A DNA stretch of 64,000 nucleotides, from NCBI RefSeq assembly GCF_000181515.1, contig NZ_ABCG01000002.1, forward strand, positions 248,001 through 312,000. Direction: 5' to 3'. This stretch comes from Erythrobacter sp. SD-21 (GTDB taxonomy: Bacteria > Pseudomonadota > Alphaproteobacteria > Sphingomonadales > Sphingomonadaceae). The notes under the pieces are model-generated. The model saw only the letters and a program-made list of their open reading frames with translations. It was not told the DNA's origin and did no database searches. The first letter of the stretch is position 1. Every line of letters begins with the position of its first letter. The translations under genes were made by a program, and so were the position numbers. Below are positions 35,530-38,615 of this stretch, in pieces.

Positions 35530-36362
35530 CGGGGCGGACCCAACGTCACCAGCCACACATCGGGCGGCGTGCCGTAGCGCAGCGGCAGGATGCTGGTGCC
35601 GAGCCCTGCCCCCACAAACACCGTCTGCCCGCCATCGCGTATCATGCCGCAGGCGAAGCGGTCGCCATAGCTCGAGAGCGTCGAAATAGGGCCGATAACG
35701 GGCAGGCTGATTTGCCCGCAATGTGTGTGACCGGCGAAGACTGCCGAAACTACGCGCGGGAGGTCGGGCACGATGTCGGGCGTGTGGCTGACCACAACGA
35801 CCGGCCCCTCGCCGAGCGCGTCGAGCGCGGCGAAGGTCGCGGGCACATCGTCATGGCCGGTGTAGTCGTCATCGACTGCGCCGATAAGCAGGGGTCCCCG
35901 CTTCACCGCCTCGTTTCTCAGGACCGTGATGCCGTGCCCCTCCAGCGCGGTGACCATCGCGTCCAGATCGACCCAGTGGACGTGATTGCCGGGGGCGACC
36001 ACCATGCCCAAACGCGCTTCGAAAGTTGCGAAGGGTGCGGCGACTTCTTCCTCGGTATAGAGCTTCGTCGCGGTGCGTTTCTCGCTGATGAGGTCGCCCG
36101 CGACGAGTATGAGGTCGGGCGAAAGCGCGTTCAATTGCTCCGCTATACGCTCCACCCGTGAAGGCGGCATGTCGGGCCCTGCCACATGCACATCCGACAG
36201 GGCGAGCACCTTGAGCGGTCTTTCGCCCTCCGGCCAGCCAGCCACCGGCACAGAAGCCTCGCGCACGATCGGGTCTGCGCGTGCGTTGGAATAGCCGAGC
36301 GCGAGGACGAGCAGGCCAGCCAGCACGGCGACCAGCGCCGCAAGTCCCAATCGCCGGAGCAC
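35526..36362 (-). CDS. Metallophosphoesterase (YkuE/PaeI-like)
   Basis: A 278-residue calcineurin-like phosphoesterase with an N-terminal hydrophobic anchor or signal (residues 1-25) that places it outside the membrane. Metal-binding motifs in order are LALSDVHVAGP, LVAGDLISE, APGNHVHWVD, VSHTPDIV and AGHTHCGQISLP. The third motif reads GNHV instead of the usual GNHD. Similar exported proteins act on UDP-sugar lipids or phospholipids; the target here is unknown. It begins six bases after thrS ends and overlaps the TauE-like gene, so it is probably co-transcribed with thrS. Confidence 0.88.
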   Translation of the reverse strand: MLRRLGLAALVAVLAGLLVLALGYSNARADPIVREASVPVAGWPEGERPLKVLALSDVHVAGPDMPPSRVERIAEQLNALSPDLILVAGDLISEKRTATKLYTEEEVAAPFATFEARLGMVVAPGNHVHWVDLDAMVTALEGHGITVLRNEAVKRGPLLIGAVDDDYTGHDDVPATFAALDALGEGPVVVVSHTPDIVPDLPRVVSAVFAGHTHCGQISLPVIGPISTLSSYGDRFACGMIRDGGQTVFVGAGLGTSILPLRYGTPPDVWLVTLGPPR

Positions 36363-36368
36363 GGAAGA

Positions 36369-38384
36369 CTAGTCCCGCAAATCCGGCGGGGTCGCTTCGG
36401 CCTTCAGCATCGCGATGGCTTCCTCGAGCGGCATAACCTTCTGGTGTTGCTGGCCGAGTGTGCGGACGGCGACGGTGCCTTCCTCGGCCTCGCGATTGCC
36501 GACTACCAACAGGTGCGGGACCTTCGCGTGGCTGTGCTCGCGCACCTTGTAGTTGATCTTCTCGTTACGAAGGTCGCTCGCCACGCGGATCCCGGCGGCT
36601 TCGAGCTTGGCGACCGCTTCCTTCGCATAGTCATCGGCATCCGAGACGATGGTCGCAACCACCGCCTGCGTCGGGGCGAGCCACACGGGCATGCGGCCGG
36701 CGTAGTGCTCGATGAGGATGCCAATAAAGCGTTCGTAGCTGCCGAAGATCGCACGGTGCAGCATGACCGGGCGGTGCTTCTCGCCATCCTCACCGACATA
36801 GCTCGCATCGAGGCGCTCGGGCAGAACGCGGTCGCCCTGGATCGTGCCGACCTGCCAGGTGCGGCCAATTGCATCGGTGAGGTGCCACTCGAGCTTGGGC
36901 GCATAAAAAGCGCCTTCGCCGGGCAGTTCTTCCCAGCCGAACTCCTCGTTCATCATGCCGGCTTCTTCGACCGCATCGCGCAATTCCTGCTCGGCCTTGT
37001 CCCAGTCCGCATCCGAGCCGAGCCGCTTTTCGGGGCGCAGCGCGAGCTTGATCGCGAAGGTGAAGCCGAAGTCCTTGTAGACGCTTTCGGCCAGCTTGCA
37101 GAAGGCGCGGACCTCTTCGACCACCTGGCTTTCGCTGCAAAAGATATGCGCGTCGTCCTGCGTGAACTGGCGCACGCGCATGAGGCCATGGAGCGCGCCA
37201 TGCGGTTCGTTGCGGTGGCAGCAGCCCATCTCGCCGAGGCGGATGGGGAGGTCGCGATAGGAGGTGATCCCCTGCTTGAAGACCAACACGTGGGCCGGGC
37301 AGTTCATCGGCTTGATCGCCATCCAGTCGGCATCGTCCGCCACCTTGGGATGCGCCGAAGCCGCGCCGCTATCGTCCACATCGGGCACGATGTCGGGGAC
37401 CGCGAACATGTTCTCGGCATATTTGCCCCAGTGCCCCGAAGCGGTCCACTGGCGCACGTCCATCAGCTGCGGCGTCTTGATCTCGCGGTAGCCCGCGCCG
37501 TCCATCTTGCGGCGCATATAAGCTTCGAGTTCGCGCCAGATGCGATAGCCGTTGGGATGCCAGAAGACGCTGCCATGCGCCTCTTCCTGCAGGTGGAAGA
37601 GATCCATTTCGCGGCCCAGCTTGCGGTGGTCGCGCTTGGCGGCTTCTTCCAGCCGCGTGAGGTGGGCGTTGAGCTGCTTCTTGTTGAGCCAGCCCGTGCC
37701 GTAGATGCGCGTCAATTGTGCGTTCTTCTGGTCGCCGCGCCAATAGGCCCCGGCGACGCGCATCAGCTTGAAGGCCTGCGGGTCGAGCTTGCCGGTCGAG
37801 GCAAGGTGCGGACCGCGGCACATGTCGAGCCAGTCTTCACCCGACCAGTAGACCGTGAGCTCTTCGTCCTCGGGCAGTTCCTTGGCCCATTCGGCCTTGA
37901 AGACCTCGCCCTCGGCCTCCCACTTGTCGATCAGCTGCTGGCGGCTCCAGACTTCGCGGCGCAGCGGCTTGTCGGCCTTAATGATGCGGCGCATTTCCTC
38001 CTCGATAGCGGGGAGGTCGTCCATCGAGAACGGCTCGCGCGTGTCGGATGCCTTCACGTCGTAATAGAAGCCGTCGTCCGTCGCCGGGCCGAAGGTAATC
38101 TGCGTGCCGGGGAAGAGCGACTGGACGGCCTCGGCCAGCACATGGGCGAAATCGTGGCGCGCGAGTTCGAGCGCGTCTTTTTCGTCGCGGCCCGTCACCA
38201 GCGCGAGCTCGGCATCGCCTTCGAAGGGGCGGTTGATATCGCGCAATTCGCCGTCCACGCGCGCAGCAATGGCGGCCTTGGCAAGGCCCGGGCCGATCGC
38301 GGCGGCGACATCGGCGGGCGTGCTGCCGGGTTCCATTTCGCGCACCGAACCATCGGGCAGGCTGATCTTGAGAAGTTCCGTCAT
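36369..38384 (-). CDS. thrS: Threonyl-tRNA synthetase
   Basis: A 671-residue class II synthetase charging tRNA-Thr. It has the TGS domain (residues 1-60) and the editing domain with [12 protein letters not shown] and [11 protein letters not shown], zinc ligands for mis-serylated tRNA. The catalytic core has [36 protein letters not shown] and FTQDDAHIF. The C-terminal anticodon-binding domain is also present. Lengths are standard. The 123 bases before the ATG follow a threonine-codon leader peptide and hairpin set, so expression is probably controlled by threonyl-tRNA supply through attenuation. Four genes follow on the same strand with minimal spacing. Confidence 0.97.
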
Positions 38385-38477
38385 CGTCTCATCCGTTTCG
38401 TTGCGAGGCCCATGGCACAGCTAGCCACGCGCTTGAAGCGGCGTTTGGGAGAATTTCGATTTCGGGAGGAAACGCCT

Positions 38478-38545
38478 GCCACCCGAAACCGGGTGGCGGT
38501 GCGTCGCTTAGGTCGCGCGCATCCGCCCCCGGAGAGCCGGGGTGG
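38478..38545 (-). promoter_or_regulatory. Candidate transcription attenuator of thrS (segments 1-4)
   Basis: Minus-strand segments in order: 1, CCACCCCGG (38545-38537); 2, CCGGGGGCGG (38532-38523); 3, CCGCCACCCGG (38499-38489); 4, CGGGTGGC (38485-38478). Segments 1:2 pair over six bases around CUCU, 2:3 over ten bases with one bulged A, and 3:4 over eight bases around GUUU. Segment 1 overlaps the Thr codons and the leader stop lies between 2 and 3. Stalling at Thr codons would free 2 to pair with 3 and prevent 3:4. A weakness is the poor U run after 3:4 (AGGCGUUUCC). Confidence 0.7.
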
Positions 38546-38579
38546 TAGTAGTCGTAGTCGTGATGCACGCTTGCGTCAT
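38508..38579 (-). CDS. Threonine-rich leader peptide upstream of thrS
   Basis: A 23-codon frame starting with ATG at 38579 and ending in TAA at 38508. It begins MTQACI, then has seven consecutive threonine codons (ACG ACT ACG ACT ACT ACC ACC, 38561-38541), and ends PALRGRMRAT. Mixed codons show this is not a simple DNA repeat. Position, codon content and the overlapping hairpins fit a regulatory leader peptide sensing charged tRNA-Thr. It starts 26 bases after the phoD stop. GGTGAG just upstream is a weak ribosome site; leaderless start is possible. Confidence 0.75.
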   Translation of the reverse strand: MTQACITTTTTTTPALRGRMRAT

Positions 38580-38586
38580 GCTCACC

Positions 38587-38615
38587 CGAATATGACGTCG
38601 CAGTCCTAAGTGCAA
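38587..38615 (-). promoter_or_regulatory. Candidate promoter of the thrS leader RNA
   Basis: TTGCAC (38615-38610), 17 bases, TATTCG (38592-38587), then seven bases to the leader-peptide ATG. It overlaps the phoD stop codon. The predicted transcription start falls at or within two bases of the ATG, as in leaderless attenuator peptides such as rhizobial trpL. Inferred from sequence only. Confidence 0.45.

Follow-up and report, generated by a model that had tools for sequence, protein, structure and literature searches.

The window, i.e., the whole 64,000-nucleotide stretch of Erythrobacter sp. SD-21 DNA that was analysed, carries on its minus strand a short open frame upstream of the threonyl-tRNA synthetase gene thrS. 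It runs from an ATG at 38579 to a TAA at 38508, with the translation MTQACITTTTTTTPALRGRMRAT before the stop, and the thrS start lies 195 nt downstream of its ATG. A first-pass annotation had described a 23-codon frame with seven Thr codons of mixed spelling before thrS, and translation returns exactly this. With a threshold of at least seven ACN codons in eight, the leader is the sole occurrence in the 64 kb on both strands, and none arose in 20 order-2 Markov simulations of one 64-kb strand. On the plus strand, an 807-codon open frame (36186-38609) is antisense to thrS and the leader, and is most likely due to G+C-rich codon usage. The features are collected in Table 1.

Table 1. Features of the thrS leader region, in the order of transcription
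Feature	Position	Strand	Basis and remarks
Putative promoter P1, -35 TTGCAC (38615-38610), 17 nt, -10 TATTCG (38592-38587)	38587..38615	-	-10 end 7 nt before ATG
Leader peptide ORF, MTQACITTTTTTTPALRGRMRAT and stop	38508..38579	-	Translation, frames in relatives, promoter spacing; probably leaderless
Seven Thr codons, regulatory codons	38541..38561	-	ACG ACT ACG ACT ACT ACC ACC; codon counts, chance test
Segment 1, pairs with 2	38537..38542	-	Complementarity; covariation not significant (520/5000 permutations as good)
Segment 2	38523..38532	-	Inside codons for LRGR; ends 12 nt before stop codon
Segment 3, pairs with 2 or 4	38489..38499	-	Duplex comparison, MAFFT columns
3:4 hairpin, GCCACCCG-GTTT-CGGGTGGC	38478..38497	-	8 bp, 4-nt loop, GC-rich; without U tract after it
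Segment 4 as used in 4:5b, CGGTTTCGGG	38482..38491	-	Duplex comparison, registered pair counts
Segment 5a, GGCGTTT, pairs with 6	38470..38476	-	Duplex comparison, registered pair counts
Segment 5b, CCCGAAATCG, pairs with 4, mutually exclusive with 3:4	38457..38466	-	Duplexes, folds, pair counts
Segment 6, AAACGCC, pairs with 5a, pseudoknot with 4:5b	38440..38446	-	Duplex comparison, registered pair counts
Possible second, thrS-proximal promoter P2, TTCAAG-17-CATGGG	38409..38437	-	Uncertain; conserved columns
thrS, threonyl-tRNA synthetase	36369..38384	-	Domains TGS, tRNA_SAD, tRNA-synt_2b (class II core), HGTP_anticodon

Around the codon run and the stop codon, mutually exclusive pairings 1:2, 2:3 and 3:4 are found as in an attenuator, the covariation of 1:2 being not significant. 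In the window, 1:2 is CCCCGG/CCGGGG (6 bp) and 2:3 joins CCGGGGGCGG (38532-38523) to CCGCCACCCGG (38499-38489) over 10 bp with one bulge. The 6, 10 and 8 bp of 1:2, 2:3 and 3:4 were found where the first-pass annotation had put them, and the coordinates bear out its placing of the stop codon between segments 2 and 3. Its claim that 2:3 is the strongest pairing does not hold, since 4:5b is at least as strong: the isolated duplex energies are -17.6 kcal/mol for 4:5b, -15.8 for 2:3, -15.3 for 1:2 and -14.1 for 3:4. Likewise, its description as a three-hairpin attenuator stands as far as the three pairings go but is incomplete, as the leader has no fewer than three further segments (5a, 5b and 6). 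By the motif used, 56 of 75 leaders have 12 nt between the end of segment 2 and the stop, so that the segment would be covered at least partly by a terminating ribosome. Folded by itself, the window leader stands out only mildly from shuffled sequences in its stability (z = -1.79, with 10 of 200 shuffles doing as well); as this is not decisive, weight was put on the comparative evidence.

The comparative locus set consisted of the best 80 thrS loci from species genomes and the window (81 in total). A Thr-rich short frame is found directly upstream of thrS in 54 of these, and in L010, L012 and L047 an additional gene of 168 codons stands between it and thrS. This gives 57 of 81 loci with a short ORF rich in the cognate codons between promoter and gene, as in an attenuator, and the Thr run, whose presence in relatives had been proposed as a check, is kept there with mixed synonymous codons. 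The other 24 loci have no leader in the upstream DNA examined, and this absence was counted against the attenuator explanation. Adding 18 of 20 model-found loci gave a set of 75 leaders (L150, without an ATG start, and L163, whose leader is that of L041, were left out), 55 of which share the peptide tail RGR. Alignment A1 comprises 52 of the 54 direct-upstream leaders and excludes L044, L009 (large insertion), L010, L012 and L047. In L044, a metagenome-assembled genome, the leader is kept upstream of thrS at 1501 and segments 3-6 are absent, which may be a real loss or an assembly fault.

Across the order, the covariance model R1, which itself covers just the last Thr codons, detected the leader in at least 87 of 296 genomes, that of the window among them (one match per genome; a lower bound, given stricter filters), and in 20 of the 79 genera sampled. 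All 87 matches are upstream of thrS on its strand, 85 of them at 8-70 nt and two at 551 nt, where the intervening gene is of the same kind as in L010, L012 and L047. In a class-wide sample, the leader was present in 3 of 289 genomes, i.e., the window's and two of the other three genomes in its family. Twenty of the 87 matches, mostly the weakest or oddest, were inspected and all have a Thr-rich frame, with 4-8 Thr in the best eight codons. A second match in the window's own genome (G000:C19, E 0.06) was rejected as chance; it appears to lie inside a 504-codon frame that looks like trpE. As to the gene between leader and thrS, it has 163-168 codons (MRYYIDTEFNGT...) in L010, L012, L047, L154 and L155; that of L012 had no Pfam match, and from its look we take the gene to be exonuclease-like.

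Segment 4 together with its loop is also the partner of 5b, downstream of the 3:4 hairpin. Covariation was assessed by comparing own-species duplex energies with cross-species permutations over the 52 leaders of A1. None of 5,000 permutations was as good as the own-species pairing for 2:3, for 4:5b (-16.3 versus -12.9 kcal/mol) or for 5a:6 (-10.8 versus -8.4 kcal/mol), and five were for 3:4, while 1:2 had no clear excess (520 as good). A further pairing, 6:7, was rejected as a terminator (weaker signal, with 194 of 5,000 as good, and no U tract). After registering the helices, 4:5b has 61 double-changed cells in 7 of its 10 pairs and 5a:6 has 59 in 5 of 7, one 5a:6 pair being T-A in 28 leaders, C-G in 24 and unpaired in none. 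Re-registration favours pairing; the control was, for 4:5b, a cross-species run registered in the same way (0 of 5,000 as good) and, for 5a:6, the duplex comparison. Segment 6 was registered relative to 5b, the MAFFT columns for 5a:6 being misregistered (47.8% paired). When the MAFFT columns are kept fixed, the paired fraction is 92.7% for 2:3 and 93.1% for the outer five pairs of 3:4. Of 500 shuffles, 43 equalled or exceeded the three double-changed pairs of 2:3 and 47 its covariation score. For 3:4 and 5a:6 together, the score was reached by 0 of 500 shuffles and the number of double-changed pairs, with 5a:6 misaligned there, by 266. The compensatory changes that the annotation had suggested seeking in relatives are therefore present for 2:3 and 3:4, with a weaker signal on the fixed columns. 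The leader is real, conserved and structurally supported.

Given the order 4-5a-5b-6, the pairings 4:5b and 5a:6 would together form an H-type pseudoknot. By registration, its loops have medians of 6, 3 and 10 nt (5, 3 and 10 in the window), lengths that look feasible; in a few rows the automatic register gives impossible loops, down to -2. By eye, the leaders of L010, L012, L047, L154 and L155 have GCGCC/GGCGC-like letters in 5a and 6, which are still complementary.

The 75 leaders were scanned for a -35/-10 pair at any distance of 4 to 29 nt from an in-frame ATG, ties going to the smaller distance, a bonus of 1 for a 17-nt spacer and an A required at the second -10 base. The -10 element ends 6 nt (30 leaders), 7 nt (36), 8 nt (8) or 9 nt (1) before the ATG in all 75, and 73 have a 17-nt spacer, the length that the bonus favours. 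Without the tie rule, distances range from 4 to 19 nt, with 49 of 75 at 6-7 nt and inner ATGs taken in some rows. With the pair placed at 6-7 nt, 81% of leaders score 7 of 12 or higher versus 1.4% of shuffles, a contrast that is somewhat flattering because the real ATG was chosen along with the promoter and the shuffles had no such choice. In the window itself P1 agrees with the consensus at just 6 of 12 bases, a weak match, and the alternative pair CTTGCA-16-CATATT, ending 9 nt before the ATG, fits about equally. Shine-Dalgarno-like motifs ahead of the leader ATG were found in just 2 of 75 leaders. With this spacing and the rarity of such motifs, transcription should start at or beside the leader AUG, which would probably make the mRNA leaderless. 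In Caulobacter such mRNAs are common, with 375 mapped according to the accessible part of that study (PMC4117421).

Closer to thrS, the P2 block TTNNNG-17-CATGGG/TAAGGC is kept in nearly all of the 52 aligned leaders (TT in 51, A in 50, 17-nt spacing). Its overall consensus score is barely above that of shuffles (4.65 versus 4.44, in a scan without L073, whose thrS start is misplaced), and judged from these columns it is possibly a second thrS promoter. Among 23 leader-lacking loci (e.g., L011, L013 and L014), 10 have their best -35/-10 pair at a position ending 6-8 nt ahead of the thrS start, and thrS mRNA may be leaderless in these.

The leaders hold 5-12 Thr codons each (75 leaders, found by Thr codons or by R1). 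Their total usage is ACC 311, ACT 110, ACG 96 and ACA 25, and for the first 630 codons of thrS at 56 of the same loci it is ACC 697, ACG 493, ACT 64 and ACA 50, so that ACT makes up 20% in the leaders versus 5% in the genes. Compared with its own thrS, the leader has the higher ACT frequency in 49 of 56 loci and the lower in 6, these being related species and not independent cases. Since ACT and ACC are both read by tRNA-Thr(GGU), the leader leans to one isoacceptor. This codon bias agrees with the theory of selective charging, as far as the accessible text of that work goes (PMC1183508).

Ribosome positions were modelled in the 52 leaders by folding only the ribosome-free RNA, with nested folds. 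With a ribosome at the stop codon, 3:4 has a probability above 0.5 in 51 of 52 leaders (1.00 in the window). Placing the ribosome on the middle Thr codon gives a probability above 0.5 to 2:3 in 32, to 4:5b in 28 and to 3:4 in 6 of 52, the mean probabilities being 0.65, 0.54 and 0.14, respectively; in the window 2:3 reaches 0.89 and 4:5b 1.00. The stalled fold is not universal, as 4:5b does not exceed 0.5 in 24 leaders. The predicted response to ribosome position is as expected of an attenuator. Without any ribosome, the means over all leaders are 0.69 for 1:2 and 0.48 for 3:4, and the window folds to 2:3 (0.97), so that an untranslated leader would default to read-through, which speaks against a simple reading.

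In other alphaproteobacterial families, 60 thrS upstream regions were screened (from 64 listed out of 102 such genomes; two regions end at contig ends). Short frames with at least four Thr in eight codons were found in 5 of 60 and with at least five in 4 of 60, the reverse-strand control giving three at four and none higher. On reading, two of the five frames were judged unlikely, and those of G065, G051 and G066 led to a survey of their families. In family f65, a Thr leader with a canonical U6 terminator is present in 6 of 10 thrS loci (L227, L229-L233); the leaders, such as MTYPTTATMTTTTTRCGGP, have a TTGACA-GATATT-like promoter close before the ATG, and the terminator reads CCCTCCCGG..CCGGAGGG-TTTTTT (CTCGGAGGG in L232), of the ..CCCTCC..GGAGGG type. 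One of the four f65 loci without a leader, L226, has just 82 nt upstream. In family f66 (L254-L273), the best frame before thrS ends in RT and the stop in 13 of 20 loci, and the nine inspected in full continue with a CGGCCGGG/CCGGCC-type hairpin that no T run follows, and have few Thr codons; by their sequence these are possibly another non-canonical thrS attenuator. In family f51, G051 alone (L192/L246) of 20 sampled has a comparable Thr-rich frame (MRTHPVLRSTATTTTTATGGRWRMRA) before thrS. R1 had no match at the leaders of the three families (24 of 50 loci), its best E value, 0.11, lying elsewhere in L267, and with E values of up to 1 admitted it matched none of the ten f65 loci. Thus, a common origin with the window leader is not supported.

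Taken as a whole, we consider it likely that the leader controls thrS by ribosome-mediated attenuation, with charged tRNA-Thr as the signal sensed. RNA polymerase would start at or next to the leader AUG and ribosomes would translate without a Shine-Dalgarno site. With plentiful charged tRNA-Thr, the ribosome would reach the stop codon and cover segment 2, 3:4 would form with 5b left free, and transcription would be stopped ahead of thrS. When charged tRNA-Thr is scarce, the ribosome would stall on the Thr codons and 2:3 would form; segment 4 would then be held by 5b, in a pseudoknot with 5a:6, which would block 3:4, hide the C-rich 5b and let the polymerase read on into thrS. The expected outcome is more threonyl-tRNA synthetase when charged tRNA-Thr runs short.

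The least sure step is how transcription would be stopped. The first-pass annotation had named the missing long U run after 3:4 as its weak point, and this is borne out across A1: in the 12 nt after 3:4, none of the 52 leaders has a T run above 3, and thus there is no canonical intrinsic terminator. The leader is outside the intrinsic-terminator subclass of attenuators, which it resembles in its working but whose U run it lacks. In the window, no terminator-like site was found on the minus strand between 38300 and 38700; the first 20 kb hold 11 such sites versus 16.0 in shuffles, a count that is uninformative on the genome-wide frequency of U-run terminators. Neither a T-box nor any Rfam leader model, including the threonine operon leader, matched in the leader even at E up to 10. 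Given the absence of a U tract, we propose that Rho or another non-canonical terminator is the likeliest executor of the OFF step. The 45 nt from stop+39 are C-rich and G-poor, with a C/G of 1.84 in the window (96th percentile of the window), and the excess after 3:4 has a median at the 96th percentile of its own locus and is at or above the 90th in 39 of 57 loci, although as a sign of Rho it is weak because it comes partly from the complementarity of 5b to the G-rich segment 4. By its composition, the stretch could serve Rho as an entry site when the leader is OFF; in the ON state 5b would be hidden. More specifically, and only tentatively, since we hold it to be somewhat less probable than its opposite, the position of the ribosome might be relayed through a chain of at least six segments, the ON-state pseudoknot hiding a Rho entry site, so that charged tRNA-Thr would set Rho-dependent termination.

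With the same sensor, 3:4 might instead be an intrinsic terminator with a poor tail (GGCGUUUCCUCC) that does not need Rho. Its short-looped, GC-rich stem in the window would suit this, the f65 leaders do have the canonical TTTTTT form, and the best 8-nt window after 3:4, soon after the stem, has four T in 19 leaders and five in four (23 of 52), with three or fewer in the other 29. We regard it as rather unlikely, given the T runs of at most 3 in every aligned leader and the fact that it leaves 5a, 5b and 6 without a role although the strongest covariation is there. Still less probable is a translational read-out, in which the segment chain would open and close the thrS ribosome-binding site. 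Chained alternative pairings 3' of the stop codon would fit it, as would segment 6 lying directly ahead of the start of the next gene in L154 and L155. This candidate was not supported, since the predicted openness of thrS -20..+15 is the same with a stalled ribosome as with one at the stop (0.467 versus 0.481; n = 52, Wilcoxon p 0.15), the start being more open by over 0.1 upon stalling in none of the 52 leaders and less open in two.

It is also conceivable, but very improbable, that ThrS or another protein binds the 4:5b/5a:6 pseudoknot or 3:4 as its operator, the Thr peptide being secondary. E. coli ThrS represses its own mRNA, which is a precedent, and a pseudoknot-capable element is conserved beside thrS. 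Against this, the letters of 4:5b and 5a:6 vary with the pairing kept, unlike a typical protein-binding site, and the Thr-rich frame accompanies all 20 inspected matches of R1, a model that includes the last Thr codons. Finally, there is next to no chance that the frame is an ordinary small protein gene or accidental, which is contradicted by its conservation (all R1 matches lie ahead of thrS), by the low complexity of the Thr run, by a tail length mostly set by segment 2 and by its absence from the simulations.

The attenuator that we favour can be set beside several known systems. As in the classical attenuators of the trp, his, thr and leu operons and of pheST of Proteobacteria, cognate codons overlap segment 1, the stop lies between segments 2 and 3, and 2:3 and 3:4 are mutually exclusive. 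Unlike them, the window leader has no U tract, has segments 5a, 5b and 6, is probably leaderless, and precedes the threonyl-tRNA synthetase gene in one family of Sphingomonadales. In Streptomyces lividans TK24, the accessible part of the report describes a Thr leader peptide before thrS that is leaderless and followed by a hairpin without a uridine-rich tail, with termination "not clear" (PMC8079986). This thrL-thrS arrangement is alike in its short Thr-containing peptide, its described leaderless state and the lack of a uridine-rich tail, but the peptide, MKRVRPFLETTPGFVPAR and stop, has two Thr and no run, the phylum is different, and no extra covarying segment chain is described in that part of the source (PMC8079986). 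A thrS leader peptide has thus been reported before, from S. lividans. The first-pass statement that there was no such description for this lineage holds in the searches of open-licence papers, in which no thrS attenuator of Sphingomonadales or other Alphaproteobacteria was among the matches listed, and is to be qualified by the S. lividans leader peptide.

Attenuators are also named ahead of Streptomyces trpS and leuS and of gammaproteobacterial pheST in the accessible portion of PMC1262725. The two Streptomyces cases are similar in that an aminoacyl-tRNA synthetase gene is predicted to be controlled through a leader peptide, with hairpins for antitermination and termination described for leuS, and concern other amino acids and another phylum (PMC1262725, same portion). 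Within Alphaproteobacteria, trpL/rnTrpL of S. meliloti is an attenuator whose mRNA starts from the leader AUG, differing in that it concerns Trp and trpE (PMC10117765, available text), and a small CDS lies before trpS in Caulobacter (PMC4117421, available text). Rho has been proposed for leader-peptide systems without terminators (PMC1262725, in the same portion). The E. coli tna and Mycobacterium cys operons share a leader peptide without an intrinsic terminator, Rho being known or proposed there (PMC1262725, as before); unlike these, the window leader has a codon run and a covarying alternative fold, and Rho is a candidate. The f65 leaders, Thr-rich and close behind a promoter-like pair in another alphaproteobacterial family, differ in their canonical terminator with TTTTTT.

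The search of Naville and Gautheret (2010) required intrinsic terminators, and missed Rho cases are its own stated limit in the accessible text (PMC2965389). Attenuator searches that demand an intrinsic terminator are blind to leaders like that of thrS here. Family f65 offers a natural comparison, with the same kind of sensor, the same gene and a textbook U6 terminator, and this contrast opens to direct test both the working of leader-peptide attenuation without a U run and the capacity of a pseudoknot to act as signal carrier. If true, the Rho-gated relay would amount to a separate type of architecture, conserved within one family of Sphingomonadales.
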